Positions 49,578 through 57,708 of a stretch of 64,000 bases of DNA are shown one piece after another. A program made the position numbers and the translations under genes. Within the stretch, counting starts at the first letter, position 1; each line of letters opens with the position of its first letter. Source of the DNA: Terriglobia bacterium (GTDB lineage: Bacteria > Acidobacteriota > Terriglobia > Bryobacterales > Bryobacteraceae). The stretch is taken from the NCBI GenBank assembly GCA_025350105.1, contig JANXYJ010000181.1, forward strand, positions 1 to 64,000, read 5' to 3'. A model generated the notes under the pieces. The model did no database searches. It had not been told where the DNA came from and was given only the letters and a program-made list of their open reading frames with translations.

Positions 49578-50474
49578 CTAAGAACGGGCTATCGGCAACT
49601 GCAAAACGAAGGTACTGCCGTGGCCTTCGCCGGCGCTTTCGGCCCACACTTTACCGCCATGGCGTTTGGCAACGGAACGCACGATGAACAGACCCAGGCC
49701 GGTGCCTTTTACTTTGGTGGCGATGGGTCCGGGGATACGGTAAAAGCGCTTAAACACCTGCTTGAGTTCAGCTTTGGCGATGCCGGGGCCGTTGTCGGTG
49801 ACGCGAACGGTGACGTAGCGGCTATCAGTACTGACGGTTTGCACGGCCACTTGTCCCAGGCTGCCGGAATATTTTACGGCGTTGTCGATTAAATTGGCGA
49901 TGGCGGCGCGGACTTCGTCGGCATCGCCGCGGATGGTGACGGGCGGGCCGGGCGTATAGGAGAGCGCGTTGTCGGGAACGTTGTAGAGGCGCCGGGCGCG
50001 GGCCAGGCAGTCTTCCACAATCGCGCCGAAATCGATGGAAGAAATATGCAGCTCTCGATTTGGTTGGCCGATGCGGCCGGTGCGCAGGATCTGCTCGATC
50101 ATGCCGAGAAGACGGTCGCTGTCATCCAGCATGATGCGGTAGAACTCCTGGCGTTTGGCATCGTCCACGGGCCGGGTCTGCAGGGTTTCCAGATAGAGGC
50201 GAATAGACGCGACCGGGGTTTTCAGTTCGTGGGTGACGGCGTTGATGAAGGCATCGTGCTGGGCGTTGCGGCGGATTTCGCGGACCAGAAAAGTGGTGTT
50301 GAGCACGACGCCGGCGATGACTGTCAGCACCAGCAAGATGCCGAAAAACAGCAGAATACCATTGCGCCAGCCCAGCAGCACCCAGCCGATGTAGAGCAGC
50401 AGGATGACGAGGATGAGGCCAACGCCCAGGGCGATGAAGAAGGCGATGGATTTGCGGCGTCCGCCGTGGACCAT
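49578..50474 (-). CDS. Sensor histidine kinase
   Basis: Two N-terminal TM segments; FINAVTHELKTPVASIRLYLETL (H box); NLIDNAVKYS (N box); VTDNGPGI; KGTGLGLFIVRSV. Confidence 0.95.
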   Translation of the reverse strand: MVHGGRRKSIAFFIALGVGLILVILLLYIGWVLLGWRNGILLFFGILLVLTVIAGVVLNTTFLVREIRRNAQHDAFINAVTHELKTPVASIRLYLETLQTRPVDDAKRQEFYRIMLDDSDRLLGMIEQILRTGRIGQPNRELHISSIDFGAIVEDCLARARRLYNVPDNALSYTPGPPVTIRGDADEVRAAIANLIDNAVKYSGSLGQVAVQTVSTDSRYVTVRVTDNGPGIAKAELKQVFKRFYRIPGPIATKVKGTGLGLFIVRSVAKRHGGKVWAESAGEGHGSTFVLQLPIARS

Positions 50475-51208: not shown

Positions 51209-52105
51209 TTAAGCCGCTTTTTGCAGAACCTGGCTGTCCACTTTGGCGGTACGGATGCCCCAAACTAAGCCAACAGCGCGCAGCATCTTCAGGGTGATCC
51301 AGGAGATATCAAGCTCGTACCACGTCAAACCGTGGCGGGCCGAGGTTTGGTGCGCGTGGTGATTGTTGTGCCAGCCCTCGCCGAAGGTAAGCAAGGCGAT
51401 GATCAAACTGTTGCGGGAATCGTCACGGGTGTTGAACCGGCGTTTGCCGAACATATGGGTAGCGGAGTTCACCAGCCAAGTGGCGTGCAGGCCGTAAACC
51501 GTGCGCAGACAACCAGCCCACAGGAATACCGGCAAGCCGCCAAATACCAGCAACAGAACGCCCAAGGCGGTGGGCGGGACCCAATGATTGGTGTTGAGCC
51601 AGTAGTAGAACCGGTGCTTGGACAGATCCGGGGCGTGCTTGATCATCAAAATCGTGTCGTTATGGTTGGTCTCGCCGAATAGAATCCAACCGATGTGGGC
51701 CCAGAAGCCGCCATCCAGAACGGGAGAATGCGGGTCACCCGGTTGATCGGACTTCGCGTGGTGAATGCGGTGCGTGCCCACCCAGAACATGGGACCGCCT
51801 TCCAAAGTGAGCGTGCCGCAGACCGCTAAAAAGTATTCCATCCACAAGGGGCACTGATAACTTTGATGGGTATGCAGACGGTGGTAGCCCAGGCTGATCC
51901 CCCAGCCTACGGCTATCCAATGGACCACGATGGCGATGGCCAAAGCCTTCCAACTGAAGAAAAAGAAGGCGGCTACGGCGCCAATGTGCAAAAGCAAAAG
52001 AGTCACTGCCGTGGGCCAGTTGATCTTTCGGCCATTCGAGAGGGGGATGGTGTGCTTGCTCACTATGAAATCCTGCTTTATGTTTGCGCTTATGTATACT
52101 TCCAT
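51209..52105 (-). CDS. Acyl-CoA/fatty acid desaturase (membrane di-iron)
   Basis: Three histidine boxes: HRLHTH, HRIHHAKSD, HNNHHAHQTSARHG. Confidence 0.93.
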   Translation of the reverse strand: MEVYISANIKQDFIVSKHTIPLSNGRKINWPTAVTLLLLHIGAVAAFFFFSWKALAIAIVVHWIAVGWGISLGYHRLHTHQSYQCPLWMEYFLAVCGTLTLEGGPMFWVGTHRIHHAKSDQPGDPHSPVLDGGFWAHIGWILFGETNHNDTILMIKHAPDLSKHRFYYWLNTNHWVPPTALGVLLLVFGGLPVFLWAGCLRTVYGLHATWLVNSATHMFGKRRFNTRDDSRNSLIIALLTFGEGWHNNHHAHQTSARHGLTWYELDISWITLKMLRAVGLVWGIRTAKVDSQVLQKAA

Positions 52106-52226
52106 CGTCAGAGTAGCAGTGGAAAGTACCCTTGCATTGTAAGAGTTGTGTAATTTCGATGAGATTGCGGGGGTTAGGCCGGGAAATGCTTGAGGGAAAG
52201 GCGTTTGGTGCCGGGGAAAGCCGTTG

Positions 52227-52270
52227 GCAGAGTAATCTTTGCAGAGTAAGCAGGCAGAGTAAGCAGAGTG
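52227..52270. repeat. Clustered GCAGAGTAA repeats (four near-copies)
   Basis: GGCAGAGTAATCTTTGCAGAGTAAGCAGGCAGAGTAAGCAGAGTG between desaturase and FAAL genes. Confidence 0.75.
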
Positions 52271-52271
52271 A

Positions 52272-54212
52272 TTAGAAGCCCGCGTACACACCCCAGCTTG
52301 CATTGGGTTGCAGGGCCAGGATCAGGTAGAACGCAAGCGCCAGGACGAAGGTTACGGCAACCAGCGTCAATGGCCCTGCGGCTGCGGCCTGGGTTTCGGC
52401 CGCGGCGTCAGTTGCGGGCGCAGAGGCCGGTTCAGCGGCGGACTTGCCGGCCAGTTCCTCGCGATAGCGGTCCAGATTGGGCCGCCGTGCGATTTTGCCG
52501 GAGGTGGTTTTCACCAGCCACCGGTGTGGAACCACGTGGACCTCACTCACCGGGCAATCCAGCTCTTCGAAAATGCGTTGGCGGGCAGTCATTTCCAGTT
52601 GTTCGATGGATTCGGCGGGGCTTGCAGGGCTGTCACTCAGAACCTGGCTTTCGTCACTCAGAACCTGGCTTTCAATGAGAACGATTATCCGCTCCGTGCC
52701 CGTCCGCTCGTCTTCCACCCCGATGGCAACGGAACGCCCCGGCACGGCATTGGGGCAAGTGTCGCACACGGCCTCTATATCCTGGGGATAGAAGTTGCGC
52801 CCGCCCACGATGAGCAGGTCCTTTTTTCGCCCGGTGATGAAGAACTGGCCCTGGTGCTGGAAGCCAAGATCGCCGGTGTAGTACCAGCCATCGCCATCGA
52901 TGTTGTCGCGGGTGGCTTCGGGATTGCGAAAGTACTGGTGCAGCGCGAACGGGCTGCGCAGAGCCAGTTCGCCTACCTCTGCTTCGGCAACACTGCTCCG
53001 TTGGGAGTCCACTACTTTCACTTCACAGCCTTCGATGGGTGATCCCACCGAGACCACGGGGGTGGACTTCTTCATCTGGGCCTCTTCTTTCAGGGCCTCT
53101 TCGAACCTGCCGCGAGAAAGCGCGGCGAGTTCAGCGTTGCGCACCACCACCGGGACGGTAGTGCTGCCGCAGGAGGTAACGGCAAATGAATTTTCCGCCA
53201 TCGCGTAGCACACCCAAAGCGATTCGCGTTTGACGCCGTAAGCCTGAAAGCGTTGCAGAAACATGTCGTGACTGGCCGCGCGCACGGGCTCGGAACAATT
53301 ATTGAAGCCGCGCATGCAGGAAAGGTCCAGGCCCGCCAAGTCCTCCGGGCGCATTCGGCTGGCCAATAGGTTGTAAGCGAAGTTGGGCTGCCAGCACAGG
53401 GTGCCTTTGAAATCCGTGATTAGCTTCAGGAAAGACGCGGGGGCCTGCACCCAGCGGAACGGATCGATGGCGGCCACTTTGGTGCCGGAGAGCAAGGGCA
53501 GGAACCAGGTGGTGAACAGGCCCATGTCGTGATACAGGGGAATCCAAGAACAAATGCGGTCCGTTTCCGGATTGAGCTGAATGCGCCGGCCGTAGCTGGC
53601 GCATTGTCCCGCCACCATTTCATGAGTGAGCGCAACACCCTTCTGCAGGCCCGTGCTTCCGGAGGAGTGCTGAATGATGGCGATCTGATCGGGCCGCACG
53701 CTTTGCCACGCGGTTGGTTCATGCGAGGTTTGCGCGGCCAGGCTATCGGCGATAATCAGGCGCCCGGACTTGACGCCGGCCTTGCTGACGGCATGGTCAA
53801 CGTCGGTGGCGAATTCGCGGTTGGTAATCACGCCATCAGGCTCCAGCAACTCCAGCACGTGGGACAGGTGTTTCATGTACACGGCGCGATCCATTTTCTC
53901 TGAAGGATGGCTATGCAGTATGGGGATGGCACCGCGCAGCATGGTGCCCAGGTGCGCGGCAAGTATAGTGCAACCGATGGGCAAAACCACCAGCACTCTG
54001 CCACCTGGCGGGATATTTTGCAGGGCTTCGGCGACCACGGCGGCGCGGGACCACAACTGGCCGTAGGTCAGCTGTTGGTGACGATCGGCCCCTTTGCCTG
54101 GATCAACCCCATCGGGTGGCGCTTGCAGATCGCGGAAAGTGAAAAAATCGCGGTCCGGATTGCGATCGACGATCGCGCGGACAATGGCGGGAAGGGTTTG
54201 CGGCGTGGACAC
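52272..54212 (-). CDS. Fatty acyl-AMP ligase-like adenylating enzyme with C-terminal transmembrane anchor
   Basis: IIQHSSGSTGLQKGVALTHEM, SWIPLYHDMGLFTTWFLPLLSG, WYYTGDLGFQHQGQFFITGRKKDLLIVGGRNFYPQDIE; C-terminal PLTLVAVTFVLALAFYLILALQ. Confidence 0.9.
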   Translation of the reverse strand: MSTPQTLPAIVRAIVDRNPDRDFFTFRDLQAPPDGVDPGKGADRHQQLTYGQLWSRAAVVAEALQNIPPGGRVLVVLPIGCTILAAHLGTMLRGAIPILHSHPSEKMDRAVYMKHLSHVLELLEPDGVITNREFATDVDHAVSKAGVKSGRLIIADSLAAQTSHEPTAWQSVRPDQIAIIQHSSGSTGLQKGVALTHEMVAGQCASYGRRIQLNPETDRICSWIPLYHDMGLFTTWFLPLLSGTKVAAIDPFRWVQAPASFLKLITDFKGTLCWQPNFAYNLLASRMRPEDLAGLDLSCMRGFNNCSEPVRAASHDMFLQRFQAYGVKRESLWVCYAMAENSFAVTSCGSTTVPVVVRNAELAALSRGRFEEALKEEAQMKKSTPVVSVGSPIEGCEVKVVDSQRSSVAEAEVGELALRSPFALHQYFRNPEATRDNIDGDGWYYTGDLGFQHQGQFFITGRKKDLLIVGGRNFYPQDIEAVCDTCPNAVPGRSVAIGVEDERTGTERIIVLIESQVLSDESQVLSDSPASPAESIEQLEMTARQRIFEELDCPVSEVHVVPHRWLVKTTSGKIARRPNLDRYREELAGKSAAEPASAPATDAAAETQAAAAGPLTLVAVTFVLALAFYLILALQPNASWGVYAGF

Positions 54213-54213
54213 T

Positions 54214-55713
54214 TTAGCGTTGGCCTTCCTGGCCTGACTGTAAGATGGCTGCGGCGATGGGCGGCGCCAGACGCTGGTTGCCCTCCACGGTATAGTGCTT
54301 CAACGTGTCTAGAAATTCCGGTGCGGGAACACTCCAGCGCTGATTGACCACGGTGCAATCGTTTTCACGGCCGTTTTCGCGACAAAGTTCGTTGGCGATG
54401 GTGAGCGCATTGACGGGTGATATTTCGGTCTGCCGCTCCCGCGGCCCGGCCGGTTGCACGAACAAAACCGTTTTGACACCACGGCGATGCAGCAGGCGGA
54501 TGGTGGAACCAAGCATCTTCACCAAAGCGGGATTGACGTCGCTGCGGGGAATCAGGTCCAGCGGTTGCTGAGGATCGGTGAGGGCGATGCGTTCACTGCG
54601 CGCGCGATAGATATCCTGCCACATGGGTCCAAACCAGGGCTTCAGGTAATAGCCGGACGTCAGAAAAAACAGAAACGGTTGATTGTGGGGCAGCGAAAAA
54701 TGGGCGGCCTGGAAGCGCCGCAGTGCGCCCCACTGGCGGCGGTCGGATTGCTGAATCAGCGTGCCGATTTCGTCAAAGGGCGGCCGCTCCGGCGCGGGCA
54801 TGCGTTGGGCGAATTCGGTGTACAGCGGCAGATTCACGGTGGTGTGGCGAAAATCACGAATCCAAAGGCGGCTGTTGCGCGTGCTGAAATAGGGGTCGCC
54901 TACGGTGAATACGGCAACTTCAAACGGCTTGTCCCACACTGCGTCCAGCAGCATCAAATCCTTAGACATCAAACGTGCAAACCAGGCAAGGTTATAGACT
55001 TTCCACTTTTCGTCAGAGTTTTTCAAGTTCTGTTCCACCCGCGCCGGCAAGGCCTGATCGGCTTCCAGATAGGAGCCGATGGTGCCGGAATCACCGAAAA
55101 AGGCAACCCTTTTATTCCCTGGTTTATTGCCTGGTTTATTGCCTGGTTTATTCCCAGTGTCCGGTGCCCTGCTGATTTCGTGCTGAGAAACGGCGAAGCG
55201 AAAATCATCCTGGCTGAATTCACCGGAGCCGCGCGGGTACAGGCGCTTGCCTCCCTCGATAAAGTCAGCGTACTGTTGGCGCAGCACGGTTTGGGGTGCC
55301 AGCCCGAGCAGCGCATCTAAAACAAAAAGCCAGAACACGGCCAGCGCAATGGTGAGAAACGGGCGGCAGGCAAGGGCGTGAAACAGCCGGTAGCCCGGCG
55401 CGGCCAGCACTGGGTGATTGGCTGAGTTGGCAGTGGCAACTTGTCCAGCCGAAGCCGGCGCGGCCTGGCCACCGGCGAGTTGGGTGAGCGAGGCAATGGT
55501 TACGGCGGACGAATCGGGAGGAGAAATGGTGCAGGCGAAGGCCTTTTCGAGATCGAGGAGAATGGTCACCAGCTCGATCGAAGTAATGATACCTGCGCGC
55601 AGCAGCGGTTTGGCATCGGCCACGCCCGTCAGACGGCCTTCGCCAAGGGCCTGCTCGAGAACCCGGCGGACGTCCTGAGCCGTAGGAGGGGCGAGTGGGC
55701 TAGTGGTGCTCAT
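54214..55713 (-). CDS. Fusion protein: acyl carrier protein-like domain, TM helix, SGNH/GDSL-like (AlgX/DltD-like) domain
   Basis: N-terminal AGIITSIELVTILLDLEKAFACTI (ACP Ser motif), TM FLTIALAVFWLFVLDALLGLA, then RVAFFGDSGTIGSYL (GDS block) and FLDTLKHYTVEGNQRLA (DxxH-like block). Confidence 0.78.
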   Translation of the reverse strand: MSTTSPLAPPTAQDVRRVLEQALGEGRLTGVADAKPLLRAGIITSIELVTILLDLEKAFACTISPPDSSAVTIASLTQLAGGQAAPASAGQVATANSANHPVLAAPGYRLFHALACRPFLTIALAVFWLFVLDALLGLAPQTVLRQQYADFIEGGKRLYPRGSGEFSQDDFRFAVSQHEISRAPDTGNKPGNKPGNKPGNKRVAFFGDSGTIGSYLEADQALPARVEQNLKNSDEKWKVYNLAWFARLMSKDLMLLDAVWDKPFEVAVFTVGDPYFSTRNSRLWIRDFRHTTVNLPLYTEFAQRMPAPERPPFDEIGTLIQQSDRRQWGALRRFQAAHFSLPHNQPFLFFLTSGYYLKPWFGPMWQDIYRARSERIALTDPQQPLDLIPRSDVNPALVKMLGSTIRLLHRRGVKTVLFVQPAGPRERQTEISPVNALTIANELCRENGRENDCTVVNQRWSVPAPEFLDTLKHYTVEGNQRLAPPIAAAILQSGQEGQR

Positions 55714-56864
55714 TGAGCGAATCCAACCAGCTTTTCAAACAAGCGGAGACGGTCCGCATAGCCGATGCCGGCTACGGGCAAAAAGAAGATCCAGGCGAGC
55801 GCGACGTAGGCGTGGGTGAGGGTCCAGGAAGCGGAGCGATAAACAAAGTGTCCTCGCAATGTTTTAGATAGAAGGGGATGGGCAAACTGGGTCCAGCTGG
55901 CGTGAAGCGCCAAACCCACTCCGTGGAACAGCCCCCACAACAAGAAGCTGGCTGTAACCGCGTGCCAGGCACCGCACACCAGCATGGTGACGGCGGGCAG
56001 CAACAGACTGGCGATCAGGCGGCTGGTGGAGGTGGCCAGGAGTCCCCGGCTGAGCGGCGTGTAAACCATGGCCCGCAACCAATTTCCCAAAGAAATGTGC
56101 CAGCGCTGCCAGAACCCGGTGATGGTGGAGGCGCCAAACGGGTTGTCGAAATTTTCGGGGGCCTGCACGCCCAGCAGGTGAGCGAAGCCGATATAGATTT
56201 CGCTGTAGCCGGAAAAATTCAGATACAGCCAAACGCCGGAGGCGAAAACGCCAATCCACAACAGAGGTGTGGGCCAGGCAGCGGCCTGCAGGGCGGCGCC
56301 AGGCAGCGCCAGGGGAACCATGCGCATTAAGATCAAGGCGGCGGCAATGCGGATCACGCCGTTCATCCAGCGGGTGAGGGCAAAAGCAAGCGCCGCTTTA
56401 TCGAAGCGGGTTTGGCTGCGCAAGGCGGTTTCCGGCGCCAGCACCGGGCCGGAAAAGAATGTGGGCGCGCAGAAGTAATAACGAAAGAAGCCAGGAGCAG
56501 TCCAATCGGTGCGCGAGACCAGCGCATAGACGACGCGCAAATAACAATAGCTGAGACCGAGTGTCCGGATGGACGCCTGGCTGATCCTTCGCAGGGAGGC
56601 ACCGGCGAAACCGGGCCAAGTGCTGCCCCACTGCATAAGAAACGGAGTTTGACGCAGGAGCAACAGCACGAAGGTGAGCGCGCAAATTGCAAGCGTTAAA
56701 TACAGACGCGACACAGGGGCCAAGCGACGGCCCAACACCAGCGCAGACGAAAACAGGAAGAACAGAATGGCTACGTCCAGGCGGGCCGAAAGGGACAACA
56801 CCATTACGGCGTGTAACAAATCAATCACAAGGGGGAGGACTGACATGGGCAGATTGCTAATCAA
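55710..56864 (-). CDS. MBOAT-family membrane-bound O-acyltransferase
   Basis: NLPMSVLPLV..., FWQRWHISLGNWLRAMVYTPL and MLVCGAWHAVTASFLLWGLFHGVGLAL (catalytic His region). Confidence 0.9.
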   Translation of the reverse strand: MISNLPMSVLPLVIDLLHAVMVLSLSARLDVAILFFLFSSALVLGRRLAPVSRLYLTLAICALTFVLLLLRQTPFLMQWGSTWPGFAGASLRRISQASIRTLGLSYCYLRVVYALVSRTDWTAPGFFRYYFCAPTFFSGPVLAPETALRSQTRFDKAALAFALTRWMNGVIRIAAALILMRMVPLALPGAALQAAAWPTPLLWIGVFASGVWLYLNFSGYSEIYIGFAHLLGVQAPENFDNPFGASTITGFWQRWHISLGNWLRAMVYTPLSRGLLATSTSRLIASLLLPAVTMLVCGAWHAVTASFLLWGLFHGVGLALHASWTQFAHPLLSKTLRGHFVYRSASWTLTHAYVALAWIFFLPVAGIGYADRLRLFEKLVGFAQ

Positions 56865-56901: not shown

Positions 56902-57708
56902 TTAGCCATTTTTTACCAGAAACTCGCCCTTCACGGTCAGCTCAGCCGGGCCGGTGAGGAAGATTTCATCGCCTGCCCAACGGACAGCTAAGGGTCCGGC
57001 GGGCGTTTGAACGGTGACCGGCGAAGTGACTAAGCCACACGCGAAGGCAGCGGCAGCGGCGCCGGTGGAGCCCGTGCCCGAACTCATGGTCTCGCCCGCG
57101 CCGCGTTCGAAGAAGCGGACGTCGAGGTTATGTGGATCAATTCTTCTGATAAATGATACGTTGGTCCGGTTGGGGAAGTGGCGATGGCGTTCGATACGGG
57201 CTCCCATCCCAACCCAGTCGAAATCAAAATTTTCGACGAAGAAAGCGCACTGTGGGTTGCCGACGTTCAAGATGACGCAATCGCGGTCTTCGAAGGCGGC
57301 ATGTAGTTCTTCGATCTTGGCCGCGCCCATGTTCATCTCGAATTCAAAGTGCAGATCATCGCGGCTTAGAAGGCGCAAATGCTTCACGCCCGCGCCGGTA
57401 GCGATCTTGATGTCACTCCCTGCCAGGCCGGCATCAACTAAGAATGCCGCCGCGCAGCGCGTGCCATTGCCGGAAATTTCGCTGCGGCTGCCGTCGGAGT
57501 TCCAGAGTTCGATTGCGGGGTGGGCTTCAGCTTCGCGTTCGCCAGCACGTGCGATGATGATCCACCCGTCCGCCCCCACCCCTGTGTAGCGGTCGCAAAT
57601 GGCGCGGGCGGTGGCGGGCATGTCCACAAGATCGGTGCGAATATGGTGCCGCCAGGTGAGCAGAAAATCGTTGCGTGCGCCGTGGGCTTTGGTGAAGGGG
57701 ATGGTCAT
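56902..57708 (-). CDS. dapF: Diaminopimelate epimerase
   Basis: TKAHGARNDFLL, NSDGSRSEISGNGTRCAAAFL, FFERGAGETMSSGTGSTGAAAAAFACG. Confidence 0.96.
   Translation of the reverse strand: MTIPFTKAHGARNDFLLTWRHHIRTDLVDMPATARAICDRYTGVGADGWIIIARAGEREAEAHPAIELWNSDGSRSEISGNGTRCAAAFLVDAGLAGSDIKIATGAGVKHLRLLSRDDLHFEFEMNMGAAKIEELHAAFEDRDCVILNVGNPQCAFFVENFDFDWVGMGARIERHRHFPNRTNVSFIRRIDPHNLDVRFFERGAGETMSSGTGSTGAAAAAFACGLVTSPVTVQTPAGPLAVRWAGDEIFLTGPAELTVKGEFLVKNG

Follow-up and report, generated by a model that had tools for sequence, protein, structure and literature searches.

A candidate three-gene, Dlt-like operon for FAAL-powered trans-membrane acylation in a Terriglobia bacterium

How might an acyl group activated in the cytoplasm be handed across the membrane when the MBOAT protein that would move it carries no shuttle motif of its own? 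The question is raised by three consecutive minus-strand genes in a 64,000-nucleotide stretch of contig JANXYJ010000181.1 (hereafter the window) from a Terriglobia bacterium (GCA_025350105.1). The genes encode an MBOAT protein, a protein in which an acyl carrier protein (ACP) domain is joined to an SGNH domain through a transmembrane (TM) helix, and a ligase of the fatty acyl-AMP ligase (FAAL) type. Sequence searches, structural models and gene co-occurrence together give good support to the prediction of a FAAL-powered, Dlt-like trans-membrane acylation operon. We consider it probable that the genes form a three-gene, fatty-acyl version of Dlt/PatAB-type acylation in which the C-terminal tail of the ligase serves as the shuttle. 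More tentatively, the ligase would be self-shuttling, activating a fatty acid in the cytoplasm and regaining it as an acyl-Tyr outside, with the carrier and the final transferase forming one membrane-spanning protein.

The operon and its three proteins

The MBOAT gene (P0001; 55710-56864; 384 aa from a TTG start, an ATG at 56846 being an equally good start), the gene for the ACP-TM-SGNH fusion (P0002; 54214-55713; 499 aa) and the ligase gene (52272-54212; 646 aa, GTG start) follow one another on the minus strand. The stop of the first and the start of the second share 4 bp in an ATGA overlap, and a 1-bp gap separates the second from the third. All three open reading frames (ORFs) are open and intact, which bears out the tight gene string described in an earlier, sequence-only reading of this DNA.

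The first protein matches Pfam PF03062 at E 8.7e-11 and the solved DltB structures 6bug/8jem at E 3e-27. Alignment shows that both conserved MBOAT histidines are kept, His256 in FWQRWH and His301 in GAWH, in agreement with its earlier description as a DltB-like MBOAT. Its C-terminus, LFEKLVGFAQ, is without the FxYxxF shuttle motif, and in an MBOAT tree it sits on a long branch among mostly motif-less MBOATs, with its placement unsure.

In the second protein the fusion of carrier and transferase is seen directly, with the ACP domain at about residues 12-84, the TM helix at about 116-138 and the SGNH domain at about 196-493. The ACP domain (55462-55680, minus strand) matches the Pfam PP-binding family PF00550 at E 0.014, below the cut-off. 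Its predicted phosphopantetheine serine, Ser45 (codon 55579-55581, in AGIITSIEL), is invariant across 24 aligned ACPs, the window domain and 23 MBOAT/FAAL-linked ACPs; the ACP and SGNH domains were aligned separately, as a joint alignment misaligned. An AlphaFold2 model (mean pLDDT 72) places helices at residues 12-23, 45-59 and 76-84, so that Ser45 opens the second helix. The Foldseek matches listed for the N-terminal 95 residues are ACPs, including DltC, none of which reaches E 0.001 for this small domain. The genome also encodes phosphopantetheinyl transferase genes. The TM helix (55300-55368, minus strand) is apparent from hydropathy of the translation and as helix 2-31 in a model of residues 106-499, and it would separate a cytoplasmic ACP domain from an SGNH domain outside. 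A single TM helix ahead of the SGNH domain is a DltD-like feature.

The DltD/PatB-like SGNH domain (54235-55128, minus strand) has its nucleophile, Ser209, in FFGDSGT and His473 in EFLDTLKH. No Pfam family matched this region, and a phmmer search of the whole protein against the PDB gave nothing useful; a profile built only from MBOAT-linked SGNH proteins of Chloroflexota recovered the domain at E 4.5e-8, and the GDS and His are conserved between it and its relatives in alignment. Foldseek matches for the C-terminal part are SGNH enzymes at a probability of about 1.00, among them DltD (6pfx, 6o93) and PatB. The model of residues 106-499 has a mean pLDDT of 64, with much of the SGNH core above 80, and confidence in the models of both fusion domains is moderate. 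The ACP fold with its phosphopantetheine-type serine and the SGNH assignment, both proposed in the sequence-only reading, are supported by these matches. NKPG units form small in-frame direct repeats in the TM-SGNH linker (55110-55155).

The ligase matches the Pfam AMP-binding family PF00501 at E 5.4e-46 and carries the motifs SSGSTGLQKG (A3) and Lys573 (A10). The closest solved FAALs are 3kxw (E 2.4e-59) and 3pbk (E 2.3e-54), and the alignment to 3kxw, 7r7f and 3pbk spans, with short gaps at most, the segment that holds the helix and the insertion specific to FAALs (PMC8460268). The top NCBIfam models are those for fatty-acid ligases or FAALs, and no DltA model is among the 25 listed. By best family models and solved structures the enzyme is FAAL-type and not the D-alanine ligase DltA, as had been supposed. 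The ligase also contains small in-frame direct repeats, SQVLSDESQVLSD, at 52620-52670.

A proposed acyl shuttle

Known systems use a C-terminal FXYXXF motif that is part either of DltX or of the MBOAT; the MBOAT passes the acyl group to the Tyr of this motif, from which it goes on to the SGNH Ser (PMC12148441). Where an MBOAT has its own C-terminal motif, a DltX-like neighbour was never found (0 of 37), whereas 19 of the 22 motif-less MBOATs have one (Fisher p 1e-12, a value that overstates independence, the MBOAT sequences being related and amounting to about six to seven lineages). Across the MBOATs compared here, an own motif and a separate shuttle microprotein are mutually exclusive, a rule that offers a simple guide to where the acyl shuttle of a system of this kind resides. 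Three motif-less MBOATs are exceptions: one has a convergent DltX-like ORF (L126), one is cut by a contig end (L121) and one is unexplained (L149).

The window MBOAT is itself motif-less, and no separate DltX was found in the region, where the small ORFs near the MBOAT do not fit. Among the 810 ORFs of the window, the ligase is the only one with a TM helix plus a C-terminal Y..[FYWL]; its C-terminal helix runs into a DltX-like YxxF tail that ends, at the stop codon, in ASWGVYAGF. It is for these reasons that we propose the tail as the shuttle. The putative module (52275-52370, minus strand) comprises the TM helix LTLVAVTFVLALAFYLILA and an outside tail, LQPNASWGVYAGF, that runs to the stop codon and contains Tyr643 (codon 52284-52286). 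The spacing from helix to Tyr is 9, as compared with 6-12 in 20 DltX-like proteins, and a C-terminal TM helix is absent from the 88 other FAALs compared. Judged from topology, spacing and complementarity, the ligase helix and tail are likely the missing DltX-type shuttle. The C-terminal helix reported earlier is present, and its role as a mere anchor gives way to a probable one in acyl transfer.

The shuttle assignment is held at likely because the DltX profile gives the tail no significant score and because its hexapeptide, GVYAGF, starts with Gly, while the MBOAT and DltX-like hexapeptides here start with F, W, Y, L or I; a Trp lies one place before it. The same two features would fit the same FAAL-ACP-MBOAT-SGNH acylation with a ligase helix that only anchors; a DltX-like microprotein from another part of the genome would then be the shuttle, or none would be needed. 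The motif-less MBOAT of L149, which has no recognisable DltX, would fit this reading as well. We find it doubtful, given that a terminal YxxF of matching spacing and topology is unique among the window ORFs and the FAALs compared and sits exactly where a shuttle is otherwise missing.

Two of the exceptional loci bear separate mention. At L149:7911-9095 a FAAL-linked, motif-less MBOAT is encoded with no DltX recognised nearby. At L126:1426-2991 a Planctomycetota SGNH/AlgX protein has a C-terminal DUF5989 (PF19451) that ends in PFIYTLF, and DUF5989 looks like a DltX-type acyl-shuttle module.

Proposed hand-over and its alternatives

In our proposal the five Dlt roles are all shared out among the three proteins (A+X, B and C+D), and we infer the following order of transfer. 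The ligase would act in the cytoplasm, adenylating a fatty (or fatty-like) acid and charging the ACP domain with it at the phosphopantetheine of Ser45. The SGNH protein of which the ACP domain is part would tether that domain to the membrane. The ACP domain would then dock on the MBOAT, whose His301 would pass the acyl group to Tyr643 of the extracytoplasmic ligase tail in the role of DltX. From the acyl-Tyr tail the group would be delivered to Ser209 of the SGNH domain and transferred by it to a periplasmic or envelope acceptor.

Beyond the Gly and the missing profile score of the tail, several observations weigh against this proposal. The ligase scores 319 and 293 bits with the NCBIfam models, as compared with curated cut-offs of 572 and 600, and the MBOAT scores 120 bits with the NCBIfam DltB model, under its cut-off of 375. 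Ser45 is preceded by Thr, whereas Asp occupies that position in nearly all relatives, and block V of the SGNH domain reads DTLKH rather than the canonical DxxH. The window genes scanned include no recognised acceptor pathway and no recognised cluster for an envelope polysaccharide. Finally, the same pair of fusions (ACP to SGNH, ligase to tail) was not found in other genomes among the matches listed, a scope that holds for all relatives and absences drawn from our FAAL pattern scan.

The unreached ligase cut-offs bear on which acid is used, as does the fact that FAAL-like sequence does not fix chain length. Were the ligase to activate another acid (short, hydroxy, aryl or amino), the operon would be an acylation system and not a fatty-acyl one, and two related loci, L087 and L099, do seem to use other acyl-ACP chemistry (an FkbH-like HAD protein plus ACP). 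This is unlikely in our judgement, the closest solved structures being FAALs and the alignment spanning both FAAL-specific regions. The possible product is at issue in a further alternative, in which the genes serve to produce or export a lipid or a small secreted metabolite, with FAAL-ACP starter loading, and MBOAT-SGNH transfers the acyl group to that product and not to an envelope polymer. FAAL functions known to date are mostly natural-product starter loading (PMC11837247), in line with such a role; no polyketide synthase (PKS) or nonribosomal peptide synthetase (NRPS) gene is among the window genes scanned, however, and the MBOAT-SGNH pairs characterised to date have envelope polymers as their targets (PMC12148441), which makes the role improbable.

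Unusual residues at several motif positions and the long MBOAT branch could also be signs of a decaying, recently acquired and non-working island. The absence of the operon from all 22 sister genomes would point the same way; in G012, one of the 22, a distant FAAL within a frame of 1091 aa is all that is present. Set against decay are three intact and overlapping ORFs, catalytic residues that are kept and a uniform GC content, the operon being like its surroundings, and we regard a non-working island as very improbable.

Related systems and genomic setting

The proposed fatty-acylation system resembles DltXABCD of Gram-positive bacteria in having a ligase, a carrier, an MBOAT without its own motif, an SGNH protein and a YxxF tail on a single TM helix. 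In contrast to Dlt, its ligase is FAAL-type and not a D-Ala ligase, its carrier (C) is fused to the SGNH protein (D) and its shuttle (X) apparently to the ligase (A). The Dlt acceptor is teichoic acid, whereas no teichoic acid acceptor is known for the window system. With PatAB and other MBOAT-SGNH acetylation pairs it shares the MBOAT and SGNH proteins, the conserved MBOAT His and SGNH Ser and the logic of an acyl-Tyr shuttle; those pairs use acyl-CoA and bear the motif on the MBOAT, while here ACP and ligase would supply the acyl group to an MBOAT without motif. Natural-product FAAL/ACP loading pairs have the same ligase fold and ACP partner, but the window system is without PKS or NRPS, is coupled to MBOAT-SGNH and has a ligase with a C-terminal membrane helix.

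Among the matches listed, the nearest FAALs by sequence are 36-41% identical and come from Anaerolineales (Chloroflexota), where an operon with the same five parts and a homologous SGNH protein is made of five separate genes. At least 12 Chloroflexota loci (L102, L103, L106, L107, L109-L111, L113, L119, L122, L124 and L125) encode, in order, a DltX-like microprotein, a DltB-like MBOAT, an SGNH protein, often a GDSL-like lipoprotein, an ACP and a FAAL. The second, GDSL-like lipoprotein between SGNH and ACP lies at L109:4305-5240 and at equivalent positions elsewhere. Another Acidobacteriota genome, G251 (L062), encodes a DltX-like ORF, MBOAT, ACP and FAAL together with an SGNH protein cut by the contig end. 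In other Acidobacteriota and in Planctomycetota, Myxococcota and Ignavibacteriota, the FAAL adjoins a motif-bearing MBOAT, often with ACP and SGNH. The parts recur together in other genomes, and the separate-gene form shows that this kind of system extends beyond the window.

The novelty suggested in the sequence-only reading stands in part. No second case of the two fusions together is among the matches listed, while the separate-gene form is common in Anaerolineales and other Acidobacteriota have FAAL-ACP-MBOAT-SGNH loci. The fusion protein as query retrieved no relative from 60 related genomes (E<=1e-5) or from a pattern scan of genome contigs, and the three-gene architecture comes from one draft assembly of 206 contigs. 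Searches of open-licence PMC papers for FAALs together with MBOAT or DltB yielded no paper that links FAAL and MBOAT, none on such an acylation system and no published system of the same architecture.

MBOAT-SGNH systems whose mechanism we found described move small groups (acetyl, D-alanyl). The FAAL-linked operons of Chloroflexota, Acidobacteriota, Myxococcota, Planctomycetota and Ignavibacteriota suggest that fatty acyl groups cross membranes likewise, which would furnish envelope molecules with lipid anchors or hydrophobic coats. If the self-shuttling ligase proposed here is correct, the window system would represent an undescribed FAAL-driven class of MBOAT-SGNH systems, in the form of a compact complex that tethers itself and carries out trans-membrane fatty acylation. 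The fused form also provides a ready-made construct with which to study the structural basis of acyl transfer from ACP to MBOAT to SGNH.

In the FAAL tree the window ligase groups with those of L126 and L072 (support 87). At L072:2868-7558 an 864-aa MBOAT-SGNH fusion is followed by ACP and FAAL, with no DltX-like ORF recognised. Three Acidobacteriaceae loci (L087:6050-10842, L099:6586-11246 and L100:5846-7291) pair a motif-less MBOAT with a DltX-like microprotein (..SVNLVYQAF). An FkbH-like HAD protein adjoins the pair in L087 and L099, with an ACP also in L087, and these two are possibly Dlt-like systems with another acyl-ACP donor.

Upstream of the MBOAT gene, dapF (56902-57708) lies on the same strand 38-56 bp away, and co-transcription of the operon from upstream is therefore possible. 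The dapF-glycosyltransferase-PfkB block and the desaturase-kinase-regulator block on the other side lie on different contigs in the two sister genomes inspected, which means that the operon is flanked by two core blocks that otherwise lie apart.

The desaturase gene (P0004; FA_desaturase, E 3.6e-14), with a probable start near 52105, follows the ligase gene at about 165 bp, and the earlier reading had counted it as part of the system. The position is confirmed and the membership is not. Orthologues (61-75% identical) are present in 20 of the 22 sister genomes and the operon in none; since these genomes keep the desaturase without the operon, we exclude it from the system. It is a genus-core gene, a neighbour only and unrelated to the operon. 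In 17 cases the orthologue shares its contig and strand with the counterpart of a histidine kinase gene (window 49578-50474), at a distance of no more than about 5 kb. The wider scan covered 80 FAAL loci and no desaturase was seen in them; the G251 locus also holds one, on the opposite strand.

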